Source of the DNA: Chloroflexota bacterium
Lineage (GTDB): Bacteria > Chloroflexota > UBA11872 > VXNJ01
DNA: 64,000 nucleotides
Reading direction: 5' to 3'
Assembly: GCA_009840625.1 (NCBI GenBank)
Contig: VXNJ01000010.1
Span: 1-64,000, forward strand
The notes beneath the pieces are model-generated. The model saw only the letters and a list, made by a program, of their open reading frames with translations. It ran no database searches and was not told where the DNA came from. This document shows positions 1-39,923 of the stretch, piece after piece. How positions within the stretch are numbered: position 1 is the first letter of the stretch; each line of letters begins with the position of its first letter. A program made the translations under genes and the position numbers.

Positions 1-1263
<1,263 letters not shown>

Positions 1264-1292
1264 CGCACTCAAAAGTTTTCAGGAATTGAACG

Positions 1293-4200
1293 ATGGCTCT
1301 TACCAACGTTGAACGGGTGGGCAAGGCGCTTGAACTGGTCCGTGATGGACTAATCGCGCCGGTCGATCGCGCGCTCGTTTCCTTTATTGGACCCGATTGG
1401 CCTAACAAAGTTTCTTCAACTTCAGGACATCCAACCCGACGCGCCAACCGAGCGGACCTCTCGCTGTTGATTTCCGGAATCATCGCCCCTGACCTGTGGC
1501 GCAATTTATGGTCCAGGCAGTTCTCAAATGGACACCGCTCGCTGGTTTTTGAACTGCGCGACGTGCGAAACCGCTGGGCCCACCAGGAGGCTTTCAGTTC
1601 CGACGACGCATATCGGGCCTTGGACACGATGGAGCGGGTCCTAGAGGCTTTTCGGGCGCCCGAGCAGCGCACTCAGATCAGATCATTGCGGATCGAATTG
1701 CAGCGCCAGGTATTCGATGCGGAGCGGCGAACCCAGCAGCGTCGCGTCGAACGGCAGACCAGTGGCGAACCCGAATCTGGCTTGAGTTCCTGGCGAGACG
1801 TGATTGCCCCACACGAGGACGTTGCGGCCAATCGCTTCGAGGAGGCCGAGTTCGCCGCAGACCTGCACGCCGTGCACTCGGGCGATGCTGATTCCCAGTA
1901 CCTTAATCCGCGCACGTTTTTTGCCCGCACGTATTTGACCCAAGGGCTGCGCGGTCTGATCACCGGAGCAGCCAAACGCCTGTCCGGTCGCGGCGGCGAT
2001 CCGGTCGTGGAATTACAGACCAATTTCGGCGGTGGCAAGACCCACAGCCTCATTGCGCTCTATCACCTCGCTTCTGGGATAAATGCTGCCGAACTTCCCG
2101 GGGTCGGGGAAGCGCTGGCCGAGGAAGATTTGCAATTGCCGGGGAAAGTTGCACGGGCGGTGCTGGTCGGCACGCAACTCCAGGCGGGCGACCCCATTAC
2201 GGTAGCTCCCGGCATAACGCTCAACACTCTCTGGGGACACATGGCCTGGCAGCTCGGCGGTCGCGAAGGGTACGAGGTCGTACGCCAGGCCGACGAGACT
2301 GGAACCAACCCCGGTGAATCCCTGGCGCGGCTGTTCCAGATGTGCAGCCCTGCGCTAATCCTCATCGATGAGTGGGTGGCGTATGCCCGCGACCTGCGCG
2401 ATCCCGGTGACGGCGAACGGCTTCCGGGCGGGTACTTTGATACCCAATTCACCTTCGCCCAGGCGCTGACCGAAAACGTTGAGCGGGTCCAGGGAGTGAT
2501 GGCGCTGGTGTCGGTTCCGTCTTCGGATCTGGAGGTTGGTGGACGTAGGGGACAGTTAGCCCTGGACAGATTACATAACGTGATTGCCCGCAAGGCCTCG
2601 CAGTGGCAGCCAGCCCAAGCCGACGAGTCGTTCGAGATCGTCAGGCGCCGGTTGTTCGATGAGATTTCACCTGAAGGCGCCCGTGAACGCGACTTGGTGA
2701 TCGACTCCTACTTGCGGATGTATCGGCGTCACCGACAGGAATTTCCTGCCGAAGCCGCAGAGCCTCTTTACCGTGAACGGATGCTGGCCACGTACCCTGT
2801 CCACCCGGCACTGTTTGATCACCTGTTCAGCCAGTGGTCGTCGCTGGACAAATTTCAACGCACCCGCGGTGTGCTGCGGTTGATGGCACTTGCGATAGCC
2901 GAATTGTGGCGTTCTACAGACAAATCACTGTTGATCATGCCGGGAACTCTGCCGATTCACGCCAGCGCGTTCTCTTCAGAACTGAAGAAGTACCTTGAGG
3001 ACGGCTGGGACCCGGTGATCAAATCCGACGTGGACGGAAAGAACTCAGAACCCGACAAGATCGACTCCGAGCATCGCCATTTCGGTCGATATTCGGCGGC
3101 GCGCCGTGTGGCCCGAACCGTCTATATGGGATCCGCACCAGGCCAAGCCGGCAACCAGCGTATCGACGTTGGGCAAGTTGCTCTTGGTTCGGTCCAGCCG
3201 GGCGAGCCGCCAACGCAATTTCGCGATGCGTTATCTGAACTAGCCCGCCGGTCGAATCATCTCTACGTCGACGGAGGACAGTACTGGTATTCGCTGCAGC
3301 CCAACGTAACCCGCATGGCCAACGAACGCGCCGTCTCGAATTTTTCCGACGCCGACGCAGACTTGCTGATTCGCGATTTGATCGCTGTCCAGCGCGACCG
3401 TGGACCATTCGCGGGAGTTCATCCGTTTGCTTCCGGACCCGGCGATGTCGACGACCGCGACGACGGAGTACGGCTGGTTATCCTGGACCCCGAATTCACC
3501 CATTCCGGACGGGATACGGATTCGGTGGCGGTGCGCTTGGCTGAACACATATTGGGCCAGCGATCGGCCGGGCCGCGCGTCAACCGCAACCTGCTGGTGT
3601 TCGTGGCCGCTGATTCGGAACGCCTTGCCGAGCTTCGCCAGGCCGCACGGCTACTGCTGGCTTGGCGGTCAATCGTTGCTGATGCCGAACGGCTGGACCT
3701 CACTCCTCATCAACAGGCCCAGGCCCGGGACCGGCAAGGTGATGCTAAAACCCGCGTGGACAGCCTTCTGGCGCAGACGTTTCGCCATCTGCTCTCGCCC
3801 TCTCAGCGACCCGGTTCGTCCGACGTTGAATGGCAGGTCGGTCTGCTCAGGTCAGAGGGGCCGATTGCAGCAATGGCGGCCGCGCGCCTGGAGTCCGACG
3901 AGCGTCTGATTACCGCTTATAGCCCGCGCCGGATTCGGATGGACCTGGACGATCACCGGCTGTGGAACCAGCAGCAGCGCATCGTAGTATCTGCGCTCTG
4001 GCAAGCCTATTGCCGCTATCCGTACCTTGCGCGGCTTTCTTCCCGGCACGTACTGGTTACAGCGATCGCCCAGATCGACGAGCAACTGATACCGGATGAC
4101 CTCTTTGGCTACGAACCCGAGGGGCCGATCAACGTGCACACTTGGCTCGTCCACCCTTCGCAGATTGAATCTGGCAACGGCGGTGGGGGTGGCGAAGAAG

Positions 4201-4469
4201 AAGTAAACGGTGGGGGCGATGATCCCCCGGAGGGCGACGCAAGGTCCAACCCGACTCGATTCTTCGGGAATTTCGAACTCGATCCGTTGCGCGCCAACGC
4301 TCAGTTTCCCGAAATCGTCGACGCCATCGTAGCTCACCTTGGTGAGGACGTAAGCATATTGGTCGATGTGACGGGCCACGAACCTGACGGTTACGACGAA
4401 AACGCCCGTCGGACCATCAGCGAGAACGCCAGCCAACTCGGTGGCAAGCAAGTGGAATTCAACGATTGA
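1293..4469 (+). CDS. DUF499 ATPase with N-terminal Swt1-like HEPN domain
   Basis: A large protein (1058 aa) of the DUF499 family. Residues 1-125 resemble the Swt1-like HEPN domain and contain an R-x4-H motif (R92 to H97, RNRWAH). The ATPase core has a Walker A-like NFGGGKTHS with K249 and a Walker B LILIDEW with D359. A Gly/Glu-rich linker near residue 970 leads to a small C-terminal domain, as is common in this family. It lies 29 bp downstream of the DUF1156 methylase and was probably co-transcribed. Such pairs are annotated as anti-phage associated, with the ATPase as the presumed effector or motor. No helicase or other partner is visible, because the upstream side is cut off and the next large gene is on the opposite strand. 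Family call is confident; function is inferred from context. Confidence 0.88.
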   Translation: MALTNVERVGKALELVRDGLIAPVDRALVSFIGPDWPNKVSSTSGHPTRRANRADLSLLISGIIAPDLWRNLWSRQFSNGHRSLVFELRDVRNRWAHQEAFSSDDAYRALDTMERVLEAFRAPEQRTQIRSLRIELQRQVFDAERRTQQRRVERQTSGEPESGLSSWRDVIAPHEDVAANRFEEAEFAADLHAVHSGDADSQYLNPRTFFARTYLTQGLRGLITGAAKRLSGRGGDPVVELQTNFGGGKTHSLIALYHLASGINAAELPGVGEALAEEDLQLPGKVARAVLVGTQLQAGDPITVAPGITLNTLWGHMAWQLGGREGYEVVRQADETGTNPGESLARLFQMCSPALILIDEWVAYARDLRDPGDGERLPGGYFDTQFTFAQALTENVERVQGVMALVSVPSSDLEVGGRRGQLALDRLHNVIARKASQWQPAQADESFEIVRRRLFDEISPEGARERDLVIDSYLRMYRRHRQEFPAEAAEPLYRERMLATYPVHPALFDHLFSQWSSLDKFQRTRGVLRLMALAIAELWRSTDKSLLIMPGTLPIHASAFSSELKKYLEDGWDPVIKSDVDGKNSEPDKIDSEHRHFGRYSAARRVARTVYMGSAPGQAGNQRIDVGQVALGSVQPGEPPTQFRDALSELARRSNHLYVDGGQYWYSLQPNVTRMANERAVSNFSDADADLLIRDLIAVQRDRGPFAGVHPFASGPGDVDDRDDGVRLVILDPEFTHSGRDTDSVAVRLAEHILGQRSAGPRVNRNLLVFVAADSERLAELRQAARLLLAWRSIVADAERLDLTPHQQAQARDRQGDAKTRVDSLLAQTFRHLLSPSQRPGSSDVEWQVGLLRSEGPIAAMAAARLESDERLITAYSPRRIRMDLDDHRLWNQQQRIVVSALWQAYCRYPYLARLSSRHVLVTAIAQIDEQLIPDDLFGYEPEGPINVHTWLVHPSQIESGNGGGGGEEEVNGGGDDPPEGDARSNPTRFFGNFELDPLRANAQFPEIVDAIVAHLGEDVSILVDVTGHEPDGYDENARRTISENASQLGGKQVEFND

Positions 4470-21001: not shown

Positions 21002-21325
21002 CCGTGTATCAGGTCGCGGACCCGGTGCGAGAAAAGAGCAGTCACTGGTCCGCCGAGGCCGATTTCACGAACCGAAACGCTCGCTCGCGCTTTCCCAATC
21101 GGCCCGGTAACGGATTCATCCGACTTTGGATGCGGCAATTGGCGAAAAATGTCCAGGGAAGGCTCCAGGATATCCAGCGGGTGTGCTGCACGCGGCCGGA
21201 TCGTTTCGAACCAGCGGGCCCGCGGGTCGGGGTTGCCATTTAGTTTGCGGGTGCGGGCAAGAATCTGGCAGTCAAAACCGCGGTCGCTGGACCCAGGGCG
21301 GCGGGGGATGTAGTTGAGGTGCAAG
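21002..21325. other. Divergent intergenic region
   Basis: About 320 bp between the divergent MFS gene and the aminotransferase pseudogene. Open frames on both strands cross the region, but none has a recognisable domain and the longest overlaps both neighbours. I call no gene; both promoters should lie here. Confidence 0.4.
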
Positions 21326-22661
21326 ATGCCGAGCGCGACCGAGTCATTGACGCCACGCAACCAATGGTCGATCGAGACCAATACTGCGGGCGAGCGCTCG
21401 CTCCTCAAGCGCGACATGGCGTTTTCGATTCAAGGAAACAGCAACGCCCCGTGCGTAATGTCGGTGCGCCGCGCCGAAGGCATCTGGCTTGAAGACTCCG
21501 ATGGCAGGCGGGTCGCAGACCTATACGGCAACAACGCGCACCACATCGGGTACCGGCATCCGGTACTGGTCGCAGCACTGCACCGGCAATTGGACCAACT
21601 CACCCTGGCGCCCAGGGGATTGACTTCAGAAACGTCTATCGAGCTTGGCGAAACGCTTGCCCGAATGTGGGGAGATCCAAACGCCAAGGTGGGCCTGACG
21701 CCGAGTGGTGGCGATGCCAATGACGCAGCCATTTGCGTCGCCAAAGCGGCCACCAATCGGTACAAAACCATTTCCTTCTACGACTCATTCCATGGGCGCA
21801 ACGCCGGAGCTCTGAGCGTTGGCGGCGGCTACAACGATCGCCGGATGCTCGGCCCGGTTGCCGGGCACGCTCAAGGTCCCTCCGCCCTGGCGCCACGGTG
21901 ACGAGCATCTAGGACTTGACGAAGAGGATTACGCCCGTCATTCGCTTAATGCAATGCGCACGGTCTTCGAATACGAACGCGATATTGCTGCAGTCGTTGC
22001 CGAAACCATTCGCAACTACGCCCATGTTCCGCCCGATTGGTTTTGGGGTGAAGTACGAGCGTTATGCGATGAGTACGGCACATTGATGGTCATGGATGAA
22101 ATTGCCACCGGCCTGGGCAAGACCGGACAACTTTTCAATCACGAACGATTTGGATTCCGTCCCGACGTGACAACCGTGGGTAAAGCGCTGGGCGGGGCTG
22201 CGATGCCGGTTGCTGGCATGATCATCAACCCGGATCTGGACCTCCCGCAAGAATCTGACATCGGTTACGTGACGCACGAGAAAAACGCAATGTCCGCGCG
22301 GGCGGCATTAACGACGCTCCAAATCATGGAGACAGCGGCTCTTGCCGATCGATCCAAGTCGCTGGGCCAGATTGCCCGAGTTCGGCTCGACGAGGTTGCT
22401 AGCAGACACGCCAGCGTCCGTGAGGTTCGCTCCGCCGGCCTTATGCTCACGCTCGACTTCAGAAACCCGTCGTTTACCAGGGGTCAGGCGGAGGCATTTG
22501 CAGAAGCTACATTCAGGGCTTGCGTGGAAGGCGGTGTCCTGCCGGTGTTTCCGCATGCGGGGTCGATCACGTTTTCGATGCCTTTGGTAATCAGCGAGGA
22601 AGACTTATCAGACTCGATAGAGGTAATCGATAAATCCTTGGCGGTCGCAGAAACGCACTAG
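21326..22661 (+). pseudogene. Frameshifted PbfA-like class III aminotransferase-fold PLP enzyme
   Basis: Two overlapping frames together encode one PLP enzyme of aminotransferase class III. The first frame (to 21856) carries DLYGNNAHHIGYRHP, PSGGDANDAA and FYDSFHGRNAGALSVGG. The second, from about 21858, carries LPGTLKVPPPW, AAVVAETIRN, MVMDEIATGLGKTG, the PLP-lysine motif TTVGKALGG and YVTHEKNAMSARAAL. The order and wording match (R)-1-hydroxy-2-aminoethylphosphonate ammonia-lyase (PbfA)-type proteins. The frames join at GP followed by LPG near 21857, where one extra base or two missing bases break the gene. It could be a true pseudogene or an assembly indel. The likely start is the ATG at 21326, with a TTG 12 bases upstream. 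It is followed by phytanoyl-CoA dioxygenase genes, which may act on related substrates. Confidence 0.8.
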
Positions 22662-22780
22662 GTTCACCAGCTACTCCATTCTTTGTGCGCCAAATCCGGG
22701 AAATCGTCGTTTGCGATGGCGGATACCTGAATTCAACGCTCGCCAAGTGATTTGAAGCTTTGCTCAACGACTAATCCACT

Positions 22781-22885
22781 CTTCTTGGCTGGTGCGCCAA
22801 ATCGAGCAGAAGTCCGTCCAGGCACACTAGATTTCGCCCTCCGTCATCGCCCGGTTGAGTTCGACCCTGCGCTATTTGATTCACG
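22781..22885 (+). pseudogene. 3' remnant of a third phytanoyl-CoA dioxygenase copy
   Basis: About 105 bp here closely match the 3' end of the first intact dioxygenase gene, at an offset of 864-865 bp. Shared blocks include the stretch around GGTGCGCCAAATCGAGCAG, the CCAGGCACACT block and GCTATTTGATTCACG. It holds an in-frame stop and indels. It is followed, as in the intact unit, by the conserved leader of the next gene. It is best read as the stump of an upstream tandem copy whose body has been lost. Confidence 0.75.
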
Positions 22886-22912
22886 GAAAAACCGGTTGCC
22901 ATGTCGCTGCCC

Positions 22913-22996
22913 AACCTAGCCGGAAATTGCAATACTTGGGCTAGGTGGACGTGGCCGCCGCGCGGCAGACGCGCGACTTGAAGGCGGAGGGCGGAT
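22913..22996 (+). promoter_or_regulatory. Duplicated leader of dioxygenase gene 1 with inverted repeat
   Basis: This 84-bp leader recurs before the second dioxygenase gene with about nine substitutions and no indels. It holds an inverted repeat CCTAGCC (22915-22921) and GGCTAGG (22939-22945) around a 17-base loop that is identical in both copies, and ends in a GGAGG ribosome-binding site before a GTG start. It may be an operator or a 5'-UTR hairpin. Confidence 0.55.
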
Positions 22997-23755
22997 GTGG
23001 ATACGAAGACAGCGTTGGCCGAACTGGGCGTCAACGATGAATCGTTGTCGGAGGAAGAGAAAAGGGAGCTCGACGAGCGGGGCTACCTGATTCTTGAGGA
23101 CATGGTCGGCGGCGAGCAACTTGCTGCCATGCGGCAGCGATTTGATCGGTTACTTGCGCTTGAGGATGGCAAAGGCAGGGAGGCCAAACCCGAGGCCGAT
23201 GTCGGGAGACTGGCCAATCTAGTCGACAAGGGTTCCGAATTTGCCCTCTGCTACTCTCACCCCAAGGTTCTCGCCGCGGTTTGGCACGTCGTCGGCGGCG
23301 AAATGCATTTGGGCTCCCTCAATGGGCGCTCGGCGCCACCGGGCCGAGGCAATCAGGCCCTGCACTGTGACAATCAGGTAACGGCGACGGTGGTGCAGAA
23401 CTACGGCTCCTGCAATTCGCTCTGGATGCTGGACGACTTCACTCCCGACAACGGTGCCACTCGTTTGGTGCCGGGAACCCACCATCTGCTGGCGCAACCG
23501 CGCGATCACATGGCCAATCCGGAGGCCGAGCACCCGGACCAGGAATTGGCCCTCGGCCGGGCCGGGTCGGTGATCATTTTTAACGGCATCACCTGGCACG
23601 GCGGCACCGTCAACCGAACCGGTCGGCCGCGTCGGGCCGTCCACTGTTTCTGGTTGGCGCGCCAGATCGAGCAGCAGACCGACCAGGCACACTGGCTTTC
23701 TTCGGCCACGATCGACGAATTTAGTCCGCCTCTTCGCTATTTGATTCACGTTTGA
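22997..23755 (+). CDS. Phytanoyl-CoA dioxygenase family protein, tandem copy 1
   Basis: An Fe(II)/2-oxoglutarate-dependent oxygenase of the PhyH family, 252 residues, expected to hydroxylate a small substrate in the cytoplasm. The iron triad is H123-C-D125 (ALHCDNQ) and H201 in TWHGGT, with R207 or R213 available to bind 2-oxoglutarate. LDDFTPDNGATRLVPGTH is the usual core. The GTG start at 22997 is supported by GGAGG six bases upstream. It is a tandem paralogue of the next gene, with a duplicated leader, and follows a PbfA-like pseudogene. PhyH-family enzymes include AEP hydroxylases such as PhnY*, which makes an aminophosphonate substrate conceivable, but the substrate is unknown. Confidence 0.92.
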   Translation: MDTKTALAELGVNDESLSEEEKRELDERGYLILEDMVGGEQLAAMRQRFDRLLALEDGKGREAKPEADVGRLANLVDKGSEFALCYSHPKVLAAVWHVVGGEMHLGSLNGRSAPPGRGNQALHCDNQVTATVVQNYGSCNSLWMLDDFTPDNGATRLVPGTHHLLAQPRDHMANPEAEHPDQELALGRAGSVIIFNGITWHGGTVNRTGRPRRAVHCFWLARQIEQQTDQAHWLSSATIDEFSPPLRYLIHV

Positions 23756-23776
23756 ATCGGCCGCCGACCGCCTTCC

Positions 23777-23860
23777 AACTTAGCCGGAAATTGCAATACT
23801 TGGGCTAGGTGGACGTGGCCTCCGCGCAACAGGCGCGCGACTTGAAGGTGGGGGGCAGAG
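23777..23860 (+). promoter_or_regulatory. Duplicated leader of dioxygenase gene 2 with inverted repeat
   Basis: Second copy of the 84-bp leader, lying exactly 864 bp from the first. The inverted repeat is CTTAGCC (23779-23785) and GGCTAGG (23803-23809), so one arm has changed by a single base, while the loop is identical. It ends in a G-rich ribosome-binding site before GTG at 23861. Confidence 0.55.
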
Positions 23861-24625
23861 GTGGATACGAATACAGCATTGGCCCAACTGGGTGTTACCG
23901 ACGAATCGTTGTCGGAGGATGAAAAAAAGGAGCTCGACGAGCGGGGCTACACGTACCTTGAAAAGGTATTGAGTCCATCGCAGCTCGAAGCGATCCGCGC
24001 CAGATTCGACGAGATCGAAGCAGCCGAGGGTGAGTTGGCGGGCGATGAGTATTACGAGGGGAAGGAAGCCAACATTGGGCGGCTGGCCAACCTGGTAGAC
24101 AAGGGCGACTGTTTCCGACCCTGCTACACCCATCCCCGCGTCCTGGCCGCGATGGCCTACATCATGAAGGATGAAATCCACTTCGACTCGCTCAACGGCC
24201 GCAATTGCCCACCGGGCCACGGCCTCCAGGCGCTCCACTGCGACGCCATGGGGACGCCTGACGACAAGGGCTATCGGGTATGCCAATCGCTGTGGATCCT
24301 TGACGATTTCACTCCCCAGAACGGCGCCACCCGCATCGTTCCCGGATCCCACAAGCTTGGCAAGCTACCCAAGGACGTAGTCGACGACCCGCTCGCCCCG
24401 CATCCGGCCGAGGAGTTGGTGTTGGCGCCGGCGGGGACAGTGGTGATCTTTAACGGCCACTGCTGGCACGGCGGAACGCAAAACCGGAGCAACGAGCAAC
24501 GCCGCGTGCTGCATGGCTGTTACGTGCGCCGCGATGCCAAGCAGCAGCAGGTCCAGGCCGATTGGCTCTCCCCGGGCACGATCGAAAGCCTCTCACCGGC
24601 GGCCCGCTACATCCTGCACGTTTGA
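23861..24625 (+). CDS. Phytanoyl-CoA dioxygenase family protein, tandem copy 2
   Basis: A 254-residue PhyH-family Fe(II)/2-oxoglutarate dioxygenase, clearly a tandem duplicate of the preceding gene. N termini are near identical (MDTNTALAQLGVTDESLSE against MDTKTALAELGVNDESLSE), as are the iron-site motifs: H126-C-D128 in ALHCDAM and H203 in CWHGGT, with R209 nearby. The middle (residues 35-75 and 130-140) has diverged and holds a few indels, so the two copies may differ in substrate. It uses GTG at 23861. The duplicated unit spans about 864 bp, leader included. It is the last gene of the run before a convergent sulfatase gene. Confidence 0.92.
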   Translation: MDTNTALAQLGVTDESLSEDEKKELDERGYTYLEKVLSPSQLEAIRARFDEIEAAEGELAGDEYYEGKEANIGRLANLVDKGDCFRPCYTHPRVLAAMAYIMKDEIHFDSLNGRNCPPGHGLQALHCDAMGTPDDKGYRVCQSLWILDDFTPQNGATRIVPGSHKLGKLPKDVVDDPLAPHPAEELVLAPAGTVVIFNGHCWHGGTQNRSNEQRRVLHGCYVRRDAKQQQVQADWLSPGTIESLSPAARYILHV

Positions 24626-24968: not shown

Positions 24969-26414
24969 CTAGACCGAAGCCAGTTTGCGGTGCCGCCGAT
25001 CGTATGTCGAAGCCAGCTTGACTAGCAGGGCCTTTCGCATTCGACCCAGCGCGGCGGAATGGGCCGGGTCGCCGGCCAGGTTGACATGCTCGCCAGGGTC
25101 AGCCTTGCGATCGTAGAGGATCTCGTTACCCTCGCCGTCAATCCAGTACTTGTTCTGCTCGTCAATGAGTGTGAGCACCGACCATCCGCTCAGCGTATAG
25201 CGGGTGGCTTTGGGAACTTCGTGGACGACCTCCTCGATGCCGGGATCGAAGTATTCCATCAGCACACAGTCCTTGCCAGGTCCGTCGCCACCGACAAGTT
25301 GCCCCCAGAGCGAGCTCCCGTCGACCGGCTTCGGGATAGGCAGCGAGAGGGCCTCAAGCAGAGTCGGCACCAGATCTACGCCTTCGAAGAAACCCTCGAA
25401 CGTTCGCCCACCGGGCAGGCCACCCGGCCAACGCCAGGCCATCGGCACCTTCATGAAGGAATCGTAGTGGGCCTGGTGCTTGCCCAGGGTGTAGTTGTCG
25501 CCACAGGCGTCGCCGTGATCTGAGAAGTAGACCACGATGGTGTTGTCGAGTTGACCGGAGCGCCGCAAATGCTCGATCACCCGTCCGCAATGGTGATCGA
25601 TCATGGTGCAGGAAGCGTAGTAGTAACGCCGATATTGGGTTACCTCTTCGTCTGTGTCCGGAAGCAGGCTCTCGGCGAGATAGCGCACCATTTCAGGCTT
25701 GTCGTCCAGTTCGCCGGGCACCACGTCGGGTGGCGGCACGCCGGAGGCCGGATAGCGATCTACATATTCGGCCGGCGGATTGCAAGGCGCGTGCGGAAGA
25801 TAAAACCCGGCGACGGCAAACCACGGCGTGTCGCCAGCGGCGTCGATGAACCCAATGGTTTGATCGGCCACCCAGGCGGTATATGAGAGTTCCTCGGGAG
25901 CCTCGAAATCCCAATAGTGTTTGCTGCGATCGCCGGTTATCGGGTGCGGTATGCCGACCTTGTCTTCCATGCCCGGGGCGACCTGACGAATCCAGCGGAT
26001 GTAGTCGTCAGGGAAGCAGCCCGGCTCGTCGGCGTTTACGTGTACGTCGAAGCCGAAACCGGGATGCGGGCGGTCAAAATCGCGCGTGCCAAGCGGCACG
26101 AAATGCAGCTTGCCCAGGTTGCCGGTCCGATAGCCGGCATCGGAGAGGATCTGGGCAACCGTCAGCTCGTCCTCTGAGAGTGCGATGCCGTTGGAAGTGA
26201 CGCCGTGATTGCGGGGGTAGCGACCGGTCAGCAGGGTGGCGCGCGACGGCGCGCAGACCGGATTGTTCACGTAACAGCCGGTCAGGTTGACCCCTTCGGC
26301 TGCTAGGCGATCGATGGCCGGCGTCTGCACGTAGCCGTCGGAATTTACGCCCAGGCAATCGAAGCGCTGCTGGTCTGACGTGAGGAACAGGACGTTGGGG
26401 CGGCGTTCGGCCAT
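24969..26414 (-). CDS. Sulfatase (formylglycine type S1), copy A
   Basis: An arylsulfatase-family hydrolase of about 481 residues that cleaves sulfate esters. The N terminus PNVLFLTSDQQRFD holds the metal-binding Asp, and NNPVCAPSRATLLTGRYP holds the C-x-P-S-R formylglycine motif (Cys54), so a maturase is needed elsewhere. VYFSDHGDACGDN is the second metal motif. The start at 26414 is chosen because GGAGG lies seven bases upstream and the protein then begins at the conserved strand; an in-frame ATG at 26459 lacks a ribosome-binding site. No signal peptide is seen, so it is probably cytoplasmic. It is one of three sulfatases in the window. The specific substrate is unknown; choline- or phosphonate-type relatives of this superfamily are alternatives. 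Confidence 0.9.
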   Translation of the reverse strand: MAERRPNVLFLTSDQQRFDCLGVNSDGYVQTPAIDRLAAEGVNLTGCYVNNPVCAPSRATLLTGRYPRNHGVTSNGIALSEDELTVAQILSDAGYRTGNLGKLHFVPLGTRDFDRPHPGFGFDVHVNADEPGCFPDDYIRWIRQVAPGMEDKVGIPHPITGDRSKHYWDFEAPEELSYTAWVADQTIGFIDAAGDTPWFAVAGFYLPHAPCNPPAEYVDRYPASGVPPPDVVPGELDDKPEMVRYLAESLLPDTDEEVTQYRRYYYASCTMIDHHCGRVIEHLRRSGQLDNTIVVYFSDHGDACGDNYTLGKHQAHYDSFMKVPMAWRWPGGLPGGRTFEGFFEGVDLVPTLLEALSLPIPKPVDGSSLWGQLVGGDGPGKDCVLMEYFDPGIEEVVHEVPKATRYTLSGWSVLTLIDEQNKYWIDGEGNEILYDRKADPGEHVNLAGDPAHSAALGRMRKALLVKLASTYDRRHRKLASV

Positions 26415-26916
26415 TGCGGCACCTCCGCGTTTCCGGGCAATCGGCGTTCGTTTGGCCATTATTGGAAATTCATTTGCCGGGCAGCCGGCAGACGCCGCAA
26501 TTGACCGGGCTCGGCAGCCGTTTCTGTCGCTTCCCAGGCCAAATTTGCGCCTGCACTTACATCTACAACGACTGAGGATTGATCGGCCCGGGCTAAGTCG
26601 ATCCGTTGGGTCGTAGATGCAGTTCCCAGACGCCCGGGCACTGGGTTAGTAGGACTTCCGAGCGGATGCCGGAGTTGGCAATCAGGGATTTGCCGTCGAA
26701 ATCGGCTTGGTTGAACCTGCGCCACCTACACCACTCCGGGGATAATGAACGCTCATGGCATGCCCGTAGATAAACCAATACGGGTGACCAGTGAACCCCT
26801 TAGATTTCGCTTCTGGGAAAGTTGCGTGACTGGCACCGGACCCAAGTGCTTGCCAATGGATCGATTGAATCGAACTATGGATTCGCGATGATGTCCGAAT
26901 TGAGACTTCGGGATGG
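26415..26916. other. Divergent intergenic region
   Basis: About 500 bp between the divergent sulfatase and ABC permease genes. Several minus-strand frames of 60-120 codons overlap one another without a recognisable domain, so no gene is called. It should contain promoters for both flanking units. Confidence 0.45.
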
Positions 26917-29187: not shown

Positions 29188-31425
29188 TCAATCCATATCA
29201 AGTTGTATCGGCAATTCAATCACCGGAATCAAAGGCGCTAGTCGAGCTTCGTATTGCCGGACAACCTCGTTATACAAGTCGTCGGCCCTCGGAACATTAA
29301 TGGTCAAAACTAGCGCATACCGGATTTTTCTCGCGGAGGATGTGCTGCCGCCTTTTGATCGAGCAACGTAGTGGATGTCGAACACCGGTTCTTTCAAGCT
29401 AGAAAGTCTTTTTCTTTTGCGGCGATGCAGCGTCGTTTCCCACTTGTGTGCATCCCTTCGGAGTTGATGCTCATTCGCGTACAGCCCACCAGGTCGAAAG
29501 AAAGATTCCGATTTTGGGTGAAGTGAATCATCCCGCGCGAACTTGTACCGATGGGGTCTAAACACAACCGAGAGTCCGCTCTTGGTGTAACTGCCTGGGT
29601 GTTCCGGGTCGATTTGCGTCGCAAAGCAAAAAGTGGCGGTTATTTCTGCAAACCCAGGAGCGTCAATTTCAGGTAGCGGGATGTGGACTCGTTTGTATTT
29701 GGCTGCGCTAATTACGTCTTGATAGACAATGCGCACGCCGTTGTCGGGACATATGACCATTTCGTCTAACGTGTCCGGCAGTTTGCCCCAACCAATTTCC
29801 GACCTCTCAAATGTCCCGGGTTGAGTGCAATGAATCAGTAGCGCCTTTATGGCCAAAGGACTTAGAACAGCGCCAAAGTGCGTCCGCACCGCAATGGCCG
29901 ACCGCATGGTAAGAGGCGACGCAAAGCTCGTACCTTGCAAAGCGGACGCCTTCCCTGGATTCAAGCTGTCTACTGCCCAGAATGGCTCCATGTCGCTCCC
30001 CCCGAACGCAATCAGGTCGGGTTTCACAATCCCGGGTGACCTTCCTGGGCCAATCGAACTGTACGCCGCTCTCTCCCAGCCGTCTCGTGTCGATTTGTTA
30101 CTCGCACCAACAGTGATTCCATTTACACAATCTGATGGAACTTGGACTCGCCACGGCTTAAGCGCATTGAATGAAGGCTCGTCCCCTGTGTTCCCAGCAG
30201 CGATGGCCATGAATGACCTTCCATCGGACAAGTGTTCGTCCAGTACGGCCGTCCAAGCGTGAACTTCGTTGTCGTCAATCGGCAATTCAGGTCCGATGCT
30301 CAAGTTGACGTATTCGTGGCCCCCCTGGCCCAACACAGATTCGACGCGCTTTAGTACTTCATACAGCTCATACGGATCGTTTTCAGATTCCTTGTCGAGC
30401 ACCCGGAAGTGGTCTACGCGGCAAAGTGGCGAATCAGGAGTAGCAGATGCGATTGAGCCAAACAACAACGCAGACGTAACTCGTTCGCCGTGTGCCAAAT
30501 ACTCGATTCCGGGTTCCCCCACACCAGGTACGTCACGAACATTCGCCCACCGATTTAGGGGGCTGTCGGAAGGCATCCCTCCGTCCAAGATTGCCACCCG
30601 AATCCCAGGATCCACTGCGGGCTTTATAGGAAGTTCGATTCGTTTAGGTTCGTAGACAACTGAAAGCGTTTTCTGCCCCACACGCAGCCTTGGCATCTCG
30701 CGCAATACCCGCAGGAATGAGAAACGCGCCACTTCTTGAGCTTCTGAGGGATTCGCGTGAATTCGGAGGAAGCACAAATTTCCAGCAAAAAACACGTTTT
30801 CGAAATCCCATTCCAAGCCCAACTCTTGGAGGTAAAACTTTAGGCCGGCCAAAATAAATCGGTCGCGCTCGTGCTCGCTGGCGTGCAGCACAACCTCAAG
30901 CAATAAACGATCAGGTTCGCTTGGTAATTGGCGGAGTCGGGACTCCGCGTCAACAGCCGCAATTGTTTCGAGTTTTGTTAAATGCCTGGCTGCAGGATGA
31001 ATTCTTGACCAATTTGGAATGCTCAGCGACAACGACCTAAACGCTGACCTTTTGCCAGCGACAAACAATTCGGTCGATACATCGGAATCACGTGCGGATT
31101 TGCGTGTCTGTTTCTCCGGTGAGACTGAGACTGACCGGCTCCCAATCGTTCGCAACCCCAGCCTTTCCAGGGCTCCTGCCGGTGAGTACGACTTTGCCAG
31201 GTATTCGGGGTGAAGCACGATTGAAGCAACCGACTCACCGCTCGGGCATACGCTTGCAGGCAACCGATCCAATGAGTTCGCAGTGTTGGCCAACATTGCC
31301 GATACACGTTGCTTCGCTTCGGCAAATTCATATGGAGGTTTCTTGGGCCCACCGCCTTCTTTGACTTCAATTTGTTCGGTGAGAGTTTCGCCATATCCAA
31401 GCAAATAATTCCGCCGGCTGGCCAT
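29188..31425 (-). CDS. ietS: S8 subtilisin-like serine protease, IetS-like
   Basis: A large subtilase, 745 residues from the ATG at 31425 (11 more if the ATG at 31458 is used). The catalytic triad is intact: Asp in RVAILDGGMP, His in AHGERV and Ser in GTSFASP, with the oxyanion Asn in AIAAGNTGDE. An N-terminal region of about 270 residues precedes the protease domain and a beta-rich region of about 220 residues follows. There is no signal peptide, so it acts in the cytoplasm. The ATPase gene lies directly upstream, with stop TAA and start ATG one base apart. An AAA ATPase plus S8 protease is the make-up of IetAS, known from plasmid incompatibility and later reported as a phage-defence system. 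Confidence 0.85.
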   Translation of the reverse strand: MASRRNYLLGYGETLTEQIEVKEGGGPKKPPYEFAEAKQRVSAMLANTANSLDRLPASVCPSGESVASIVLHPEYLAKSYSPAGALERLGLRTIGSRSVSVSPEKQTRKSARDSDVSTELFVAGKRSAFRSLSLSIPNWSRIHPAARHLTKLETIAAVDAESRLRQLPSEPDRLLLEVVLHASEHERDRFILAGLKFYLQELGLEWDFENVFFAGNLCFLRIHANPSEAQEVARFSFLRVLREMPRLRVGQKTLSVVYEPKRIELPIKPAVDPGIRVAILDGGMPSDSPLNRWANVRDVPGVGEPGIEYLAHGERVTSALLFGSIASATPDSPLCRVDHFRVLDKESENDPYELYEVLKRVESVLGQGGHEYVNLSIGPELPIDDNEVHAWTAVLDEHLSDGRSFMAIAAGNTGDEPSFNALKPWRVQVPSDCVNGITVGASNKSTRDGWERAAYSSIGPGRSPGIVKPDLIAFGGSDMEPFWAVDSLNPGKASALQGTSFASPLTMRSAIAVRTHFGAVLSPLAIKALLIHCTQPGTFERSEIGWGKLPDTLDEMVICPDNGVRIVYQDVISAAKYKRVHIPLPEIDAPGFAEITATFCFATQIDPEHPGSYTKSGLSVVFRPHRYKFARDDSLHPKSESFFRPGGLYANEHQLRRDAHKWETTLHRRKRKRLSSLKEPVFDIHYVARSKGGSTSSARKIRYALVLTINVPRADDLYNEVVRQYEARLAPLIPVIELPIQLDMD

Positions 31426-31426
31426 G

Positions 31427-32587
31427 TTATCTGCCGCTGACCGACTGTTCGTGGACATATTTGCGAATGGTGTCTCGACTTACACCGGTGGTTCTACTTG
31501 CCTCCCGTTGCGACATTAGCCCTTCAGACACAATTGCGATTGCGAGATTGCGGCGCATATTCGTGGGAGCAGATCTCGCGATTTGACTCAGGATTTCGAC
31601 AGACCCGACTTCAATGCTGCAATCCTCGATTGCGGTATATCGTCGCACTCTATCCACGACGTGGCGAACTTGGCTCAACGATTCGCCATCCAAGGCATGC
31701 GCGAACAATTCGGGCCAAGGATCCGATTTTTTAAACTTCATCTGATTTCTGACGTAAGACCCAATCAACTCTCTTTCTGGAAGCGGAAACTCAACAATGA
31801 GTTCGAATCTACGCCAAACTGCAGGGTCTAACAATTTCGAGTGATTGGTCGCCGCTAACAACAGGCCCCGTGCGGGCCACTCATCGATTTCCTGAAGTAA
31901 AACTGTAACTAGTCTTTTCAGCTCCCCAATTTCCCCCACGTCATCGCGCCGCTTAGCAACAGCGTCAAGCTCGTCCAGCAAAAGAACACACTCCCGGCTT
32001 CTAGCGAAATCCAGGACCGCACGTAGGTTATTGCCGGTTCGCCCAAGAAACGAACTCATCACAGCCGACAAATCAAGAATCGCGAGTGGCCGCTTAAGTT
32101 CACGGGCTACCCACTTCGCTGCTAGCGTCTTGCCAACTCCCGGCGGACCGATGAACAATGCGGTCCTCGTAGGGTCAATCCCCGATTCCGCAAGTGCGCT
32201 TGCACTGATCCTCTCGCGCACGATTTGATTCAAAAGTCCCCACACGCGCGATACGTATATGGGTTCTATTTCCAGAGTTGGAGTTTCCAAGACTCGAATC
32301 AACGGTAATCGCGAATTGCCATCAAGTGGAATACCGGAAGATTCGATTTGACGCGTCGAATCTCCTTTAACCGGCGCATTCCTCAGGAGCGCCATCAATC
32401 GATCCGCAAATTCGGGATTCGTTGAACGGCATTCCCTGGCCAAATTTCGCAATTGCAATACCAAGTCTCGCTTCTTCCCCTTCAACGCGATTTGCGACAA
32501 GTGGAATAATCGTTCTTGCCATTCCTCCGTATCGTCCACACCTATGTGACTGTCGGAATTTCCTTGAGAACCTTCCATCCGTCGCAC
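31427..32587 (-). CDS. ietA: AAA+ ATPase, IetA-like, with C-terminal helix-turn-helix
   Basis: An AAA+ ATPase of 386 residues (GTG start at 32587; an ATG nine bases later is possible). Walker A is GPPGVGKT (147-154), Walker B is CVLLLDELDA (200-209), sensor-1 Asn is in AATNHS and the arginine finger in WRRFE. A helical N-terminal domain of about 130 residues precedes the ATPase core. The C-terminal tail SQREASRTTGVSRDTIRKYV has the spacing of a DNA-binding helix-turn-helix. It is followed immediately by the subtilase gene. In the IetAS model the ATPase senses or delivers targets to the protease; the HTH tail suggests DNA or operator contact here, which is inference. Confidence 0.85.
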   Translation of the reverse strand: MRRMEGSQGNSDSHIGVDDTEEWQERLFHLSQIALKGKKRDLVLQLRNLARECRSTNPEFADRLMALLRNAPVKGDSTRQIESSGIPLDGNSRLPLIRVLETPTLEIEPIYVSRVWGLLNQIVRERISASALAESGIDPTRTALFIGPPGVGKTLAAKWVARELKRPLAILDLSAVMSSFLGRTGNNLRAVLDFARSRECVLLLDELDAVAKRRDDVGEIGELKRLVTVLLQEIDEWPARGLLLAATNHSKLLDPAVWRRFELIVEFPLPERELIGSYVRNQMKFKKSDPWPELFAHALDGESLSQVRHVVDRVRRYTAIEDCSIEVGSVEILSQIARSAPTNMRRNLAIAIVSEGLMSQREASRTTGVSRDTIRKYVHEQSVSGR

Positions 32588-38197: not shown

Positions 38198-39616
38198 TCA
38201 GGCGTAATCGGCGCCGGTCAGACTCTCCAGCACGGACTGTTGCCATTCCTTCAATTTGGCCCCCAAACGTTCAACTTCCTGCGGTTGAGCCGTTGAAAGG
38301 TCCCTTTTTTCGGATGCATCCGCTCGGATATCGAATAGTTCCTGGCCGGTTCCGGGCTCTCCATCAATGACGAGCTTGTATCGCGAATCAAGGACCGCGC
38401 GGGGTCCCTCGAAATCGTCTTCCCGGATCTCCGGATGGTGGTAGTTTTCGAAGTCGCGGGTGAATTTTCCGTCCATTAATTTGGCAAGCGGGCAAGTGCC
38501 GGACTGAAGGTCCGGATCGATATATGGCTCAGCGTCATCCGCCACGCTGCCGCCAAAACTCCAGAAGCAGATCGGATCGGGCCGGTCGCCCGCTTCACCT
38601 TCCATGGCCGGCACCAAACTGATGCCGTCCAAGGGGCGATCGGGCAATGGCTGTCCCGTCAGCTCGCACAATGTCGGCAGGATGTCGCTGGTGACCGAGT
38701 CCATCGACACGCGCATTGGATCCCTGAACCGGCCCGGCCACTCGATAACCGCAGGAACCCGGATACCGCCCTCGTAAACGAGTCCCTTGTAACCGCGCAT
38801 TGGCGAGGCGAACCGGCTCTCCCGCGGCGCGCCGTTGTCGCCGCAGTACCAGAGCAAAGTCTCATCCCTTATCTGCTCCCGGGACAGGTGCTGGCGCAGA
38901 TCGCCGATCGCCCTGTCCATCGCAGTGATCTCTGCATAACGCGCCTGCAGCACCCTGTCCAGTCGAACATGCACCTGCTCTCCGGTCTCAAGCGAGGTGA
39001 TCTGCGCTGTGCTCTGCTGCAATTCTTCCGGCAGATCGCCGTAGGTGGCAAGGTCCTCATCAAGTGCGCTGTAGGGCTCGTGCGGGGATCCGAACCAGGC
39101 CACCACGAAAAACGGGCGCCCGGCTGCCCGCGCATCCGAGATGAAACGGTTGGCCGCATCGACGACGATCTGGGAGCTTTCACCCTCGTATTGCTCAGGG
39201 GCGCCGCCGTTGTGCGAAAGGTACGGGTCCATGTCGAAAAAGTTGTCGTGCGAGAGGTATTCCTCAAACCCCATTGCCCGCGGATTGGTTGGCGAATCGG
39301 CCTTCACCGGACCGAGATGCCACTTGCCAAAGTGGCCGCAGGCGTAGCCCGCCCGCGACAGGATCTGCGCGATGGTTATTTCCTCCGGCCGGATCGACCA
39401 GCCCGGGTCGAACGTTCCGCACCGATTCGGATGACGGCCGGTCATCACGCTCGCCCTAGTTGGCGAGCAGAGCGGTGCGCCGGAATAGAAGCTGTCGAGT
39501 CGGAGCCCTTCGGAGGCCATTTCATCCAGGACCGGCGTCTGCACGATCGGATGCCCGTTGTAGCCGGTTTCATGCCATCCGTGGTCGTCACTCATCAGAA
39601 ACACGATGTTGGGCAT
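38198..39616 (-). CDS. Sulfatase (formylglycine type S1), copy B
   Basis: An arylsulfatase-family enzyme of about 472 residues. The N terminus MPNIVFLMSDDHGWHE holds the two metal-binding Asp; GAPLCSPTRASVMTGRHPNR holds the C-x-P-x-R formylglycine motif (Cys50); WYCGDNGAP is the second metal site. I chose the ATG at 39616, where the conserved fold begins. The frame stays open upstream to 39796, adding 60 residues rich in Ser, Ala and Arg with no hydrophobic signal, so those residues are unlikely to be real. No strong Shine-Dalgarno supports either start. It resembles enzymes acting on sulfated sugars; the exact substrate is unknown. Confidence 0.88.
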   Translation of the reverse strand: MPNIVFLMSDDHGWHETGYNGHPIVQTPVLDEMASEGLRLDSFYSGAPLCSPTRASVMTGRHPNRCGTFDPGWSIRPEEITIAQILSRAGYACGHFGKWHLGPVKADSPTNPRAMGFEEYLSHDNFFDMDPYLSHNGGAPEQYEGESSQIVVDAANRFISDARAAGRPFFVVAWFGSPHEPYSALDEDLATYGDLPEELQQSTAQITSLETGEQVHVRLDRVLQARYAEITAMDRAIGDLRQHLSREQIRDETLLWYCGDNGAPRESRFASPMRGYKGLVYEGGIRVPAVIEWPGRFRDPMRVSMDSVTSDILPTLCELTGQPLPDRPLDGISLVPAMEGEAGDRPDPICFWSFGGSVADDAEPYIDPDLQSGTCPLAKLMDGKFTRDFENYHHPEIREDDFEGPRAVLDSRYKLVIDGEPGTGQELFDIRADASEKRDLSTAQPQEVERLGAKLKEWQQSVLESLTGADYA

Positions 39617-39923
39617 CGAGCCCGGAGTTTCCCGGGCAGAGGTAGCCGCGGAGCTTGGCGATGCGTTCACGGGCGCTGAACTTCCAGAGCTATGGGTTGG
39701 GGATTGACGCCGCGCGATTCTTGCAGCCGGGCGGCTCGCCGATCGGGCCGATTTAGATCTCAAACGCGAGACGCCGCCATTTCCGCTCCCTCGCACCTTG
39801 CAAGAATGGGTGCCCTGAAGGGACTTTCACTGGTGGCGGCACCCTGATTTGCAGACACAGAATTCGGACCCAATGCTGGCAACTGGTTCCGCTACCGGGC
39901 AATCTTGGGGTCCGGCTTAACGC

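Follow-up and report, generated by a model that had tools for sequence, protein, structure and literature searches.

Two genes coding for PhyH-type Fe(II)/2OG dioxygenases (A and B; Table 1) were identified in tandem in the stretch of Chloroflexota bacterium DNA analyzed (hereafter the window; 64,000 nucleotides of contig VXNJ01000010.1, assembly GCA_009840625.1), where they were flanked by an aminotransferase gene and a sulfatase gene. Both genes had GTG starts, spaced 864 bp apart, and both matched PF05721 at E 2e-25 or better (91 and 97 bits for the pair compared to a curated cut-off of 22), consistent with a preliminary description of the sequence that had reported tandem PhyH genes one 864-bp step apart. 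The genome maintained 12 PhyH genes in total, and an expansion of enzyme families, oxygenases among them, has been described in Chloroflexota of the SAR202 clade (PMC6946804).

Table 1. Features of the tandem PhyH locus, in window coordinates.
Feature	Coordinates	Strand	Evidence or remark
Stump: decayed A-type PhyH gene, 3' end (A residues about 212-251)	22765..22885	+	DNA alignment to A
A leader: copy of the A-B intergenic spacer	22886..22996	+	22911-22958 differs at 2/48 and 22959-22996 at 7/38 positions from the B leader
Gene A: PhyH-type Fe(II)/2OG dioxygenase, chimeric, 252 aa	22997..23755	+	PF05721, E 1.7e-25
A codons 1-30: tract common to A and B	22997..23086	+	Recombination breakpoint at 3' edge
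A-B spacer and B leader: source of the copied leader	23756..23860	+	Palindrome core 23780-23808 with one change
Gene B: PhyH-type Fe(II)/2OG dioxygenase, 254 aa	23861..24625	+	PF05721, E 2.5e-27

The A and B gene products are predicted to be intact, ordinary PhyH-fold oxygenases. Residues H123, D125, H201, and R212 were invariant in 25 aligned homologues and kept in both proteins, and are presumably the HxD...H facial triad (H123, D125, and H201) and the 2OG-binding arginine (R212) known from the family. The AlphaFold model of A (pLDDT 91.5) displayed the double-stranded beta-helix fold and matched FtmOx1 (VIA-align Z 25.7 over 228 residues, rmsd 2.1), SptF, PrhA, and DhiD. The fold, family match, HxD...H motif, and arginine are therefore held in common with the PhyH/phytanoyl-CoA dioxygenase family (PF05721), although its solved members are about 20% identical to A and B. 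Both enzymes probably hydroxylate small organic substrates, activity and substrate here being predictions. Candidate annotations as ectoine hydroxylase (TIGR02408) and methylphosphonate hydroxylase (NF052437) were rejected, scoring 27 bits versus 336.5 (A) and 23 bits versus 500 (B).

The upstream neighbor was a class-III aminotransferase gene (21314-22661) interrupted by a single frameshift near 21860 that leaves it in two frames; next to the stump, this would be another damaged gene unless the frameshift is a sequencing error. Its annotation as PbfA, an (R)-1-hydroxy-2-aminoethylphosphonate ammonia-lyase (NF049939), was rejected as the two frames scored 161.5 and 222.7 bits compared to a cut-off of 525. 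Two sulfatase genes were encoded on the minus strand (24969-26459 and 38198-39796), and a sulfatase gene also followed a PhyH gene in a Latescibacterota locus. Deriving a substrate from such neighbors was likewise unsuccessful, since aminotransferases in three loci (L022, L023, and L081) and sulfatases in five loci were just 23-42% similar, too weak to fix the pathway. Elsewhere in the window, two proteins encoded at 292-4469 matched the PADLOC models HmaB (C-terminal part only, 323 aa) and HmaC and appear to belong to an Hma-type anti-phage defense system with a short HmaB, and a subtilase and AAA ATPase pair at 29188-32587 (GC content 0.51-0.57 compared to about 0.60) matched IetS and IetA of a further anti-phage defense system.

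A decayed gene copy was located one unit upstream of A, as the preliminary description had proposed. Positions 22775-22885 aligned gap-free with the A 3' end at an offset of 865 (84/111 bases identical), the protein-level match began at about 22765, and the stump carried one in-frame TAG while its native stop was gone. Differences between the stump and A were spread evenly over the codon positions (10/8/9), a pattern as in a pseudogene. The DNA score of the stump versus A was 87, compared to a maximum of 38 in Markov shuffles and at most 24 versus every other homologue, including B and the genes of a second pair described below, such that the similarity clearly exceeded that between unrelated PhyH genes. 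The stops and indels attributed to the remnant were confirmed for the stop and not for the indels, none of which occurred inside the stump; the sole 1-nt indel sits in the spacer that separates the stump from the leader and changes the spacing from 865 to 864. A second mini-stump near 22685-22696 was rejected because its 12-nt exact match was reached by 4/1000 shuffles and the pair had been picked post hoc. The 3' stump is all that was seen here of a third copy.

The A leader contained a nested palindrome at 22914-22946 (ACCTAGCC-GGAA-ATTGCAAT-ACTTG-GGCTAGGT) that recurred in the B leader at 23778-23810, where a single change affects the left arm. The palindrome core occurred in the genome in these two leaders only, with none elsewhere at up to three mismatches, and a genome-wide search with the leader identified no copies beyond these two. 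The first 48 nt formed the most conserved block (4% diverged compared to 24% for the stump) and may be under constraint, given that just two differences separate the copies; the difference between this block and the next 38 nt is suggestive only (Fisher p 0.07 for 45 versus 38 nt). RNA fold z-scores of the leaders were -0.8 and -1.3, an Rfam search of the leader returned a chance match far below the cut-off with no fitting family, and a scan for sigma-70 promoters found none. As the RNA fold was unremarkable, the palindrome could equally be an operator or a hairpin.

Comparison of the two units revealed that the 864-bp unit is a mosaic. Positions 22911-23086 and 23775-23950, comprising leader sequence and codons 1-30, differed gap-free at 19/176 positions (89% identity), and A and B were 58% identical at the nucleotide level from codon 31. 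The unit had been described as occurring twice, which holds for the 864-bp spacing but not for a uniform repeat, and its copies as differing mostly in the middle, which was contradicted by an identity that falls at codon 31 and remains low through to the 3' end. The best breakpoint lay after codon 30 (chi-square 31.9; 0/1000 shuffles as high), and the diagnostic residues that separate A-type from B-type among four proteins numbered 29 after codon 30 and zero before it. Third positions differed at 7/30 codons (23%) in the common tract and were 41-53% identical past codon 30, near saturation, leaving a dN/dS test little power. In the AlphaFold model of A, codon 30 falls where helix 19-28 gives way to the first strand (30-33), so that the catalytic core of A was not broken up by the exchange.

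The same genome encodes a second A-B tandem pair (C1:549265-550887, hereafter C1) that served as a control. Phylogenetic analysis grouped the window and C1 genes by type, with support of 97/94 for both A genes and 100/100 for both B genes, showing that both types are present at C1 and that the A/B split predates both loci. Right of the breakpoint, a clade of the window A and B genes was rejected (p-AU 0.0001) compared to its support of 96/95 to the left, where the tree of 30 columns did not reject a grouping of the two A genes (p-AU 0.22). Residues of codons 1-30 common to the window A and B were shared five times with the C1 B gene alone and three times with the C1 A gene alone, which decides nothing on direction. 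In the C1 pair, the first 28 codons were the least similar part (42% compared to 61% nucleotide identity beyond), no leader or 5' similarity was identified between its genes, and its spacer was unlike the window leader; DNA similarity between C1 and the window locus spanned 23068-24625 only. Past codon 30, the C1 pair was as diverged (61% nucleotide identity) as the window pair (58%), such that the uneven identity reflects where the recombined tract ends. The suggestion of substrate contacts and positive selection in the middle of the genes was therefore not upheld, the presumed iron and 2OG residues also being conserved in both. That the genome keeps an A-type and a B-type gene at each of two loci points to distinct or combined roles for A and B, which have probably either come to differ in specificity or work jointly. 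Two different PhyH-fold chains form the TlxI/TlxJ 2OG dioxygenase heterodimer (PDB 7vbq), both among the fold matches of A, but they are about 20% identical to A and B and an A/B heterodimer by analogy with them is only a lead.

A relative from the same family (G001) contained one PhyH gene at a place syntenic with C1, with neighbors similar to those at C1 including HpcH-like (51%), SDR (51%), TIM barrel (49%), and GFO/IDH (54%) proteins. This gene was the next branch below A and B (88/93), which were sisters with support of 88/87. Comparison of copy number among relatives had been proposed in the preliminary description and returned this single-copy syntenic locus, with no further tandem pair of the A/B family in 60 related genomes (searched at E 1e-30) or in the flanks retrieved for 80 GTDB loci. 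Adjacent PhyH genes in G001 and two other genomes (G002 and G004) were rejected as a parallel case, as the 23-44% identity of these pairs indicates old or unrelated neighbors. C1 appears to be the older location of the pair.

The A and B genes are best explained as tandem paralogues, with A having been rebuilt through homologous recombination with B, most simply by an unequal crossover at codon 30 (probability about 0.7). A likely order of events would begin with one PhyH gene in a catabolic cluster (the G001 state), followed by tandem duplication there in this lineage to give A-B (the state retained at C1) and copying of the two-gene block to its present locus between the aminotransferase and sulfatase genes. 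Non-allelic recombination between the 5' parts of A and B in the window would then have generated A - (B 1-30/A 31-252) - B, after which the original A would have lost sequence from its 5' end and degenerated until only the stump was left, with the chimera remaining as the working gene A. The chimeric gene would thereby be preceded by a duplicate of the leader from between A and B, in the register observed. A stump of A in register, followed by a copy of the spacer native to the A 3' side, argues for this reading, and the similar divergence of the third positions of the tract (7/30) and the stump (27/111) is as expected from one event. The direction of transfer appears to be from B to A, mainly on account of gene order. 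Unequal recombination had been claimed for this locus from the outset and is well supported by the codon-30 breakpoint, the conflicting trees, and the stump one unit upstream, but no intermediate with three genes was seen among the relatives searched, which included no further genome of the same genus.

The same final sequence would result from a one-step template switch during replication or repair, in which a block of approximately 312 nt (the A 3' end, spacer, and B codons 1-30) replaced the upstream region and first 30 codons of A with edges at about 22770 and 23086, such that no complete gene would ever have stood where the stump now lies. This alternative dispenses with a second deletion step and the sequence itself favors neither event over the other, but it is unlikely in that, on the aminotransferase side, the block would have to join without homology at its left edge, while a crossover could draw on the ample homology between A and B. 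A very doubtful explanation is an older three-gene array (A'-A-B) in which A' decayed and a separate gene conversion, in either direction, made A and B alike in leader and 5' end. Separate events could explain the low divergence of the first 48 leader nt relative to the stump, but two unrelated events would be required for a stump and tract that lie in one register and are similarly diverged (24% for the stump compared to 23% at third positions of the tract).

An old tandem duplication without recombination, with the leader and 5' end held alike by regulatory selection and the middle diverged by positive selection, is scarcely tenable. A leader that is the most conserved block and whose palindrome could be an operator or RNA hairpin would be consistent with such selection, but the C1 pair lacks leader and 5' similarity, the genes of the window pair, but not those at C1, resemble each other at the third positions of codons 1-30, the similarity breaks off abruptly at codon 30, a second copy of the spacer follows the A stump, and the leaders have neither a marked RNA fold nor an Rfam family. 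A distinct question is whether transfer of the palindromic leader from B to A as an active regulatory element was the selected outcome. Adaptive promoter capture of this kind is improbable; if true, the chimera would have placed A under the control of B with the A catalytic core retained.

Remodeling of A by recombination with B provides a clean example of reshuffling between paralogues in a metagenome-type genome, where the intact sister pair serves as the control, and highlights that uneven identity between tandem genes can be the mark of past recombination and does not have to signify adaptive divergence. The case leaves the understanding of PhyH enzymes and of gene duplication unchanged, the mechanism being already known and this example tidy but ordinary. 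Chimeric genes arising via unequal crossing over or ectopic gene conversion have in common with A/B the tandem paralogues, sharp breakpoint, conflicting affinities, and in-register leftover fragment. The A/B locus is of the same kind, and here one catalytic core was kept while the leader and N-terminal helices of the neighbor were taken.
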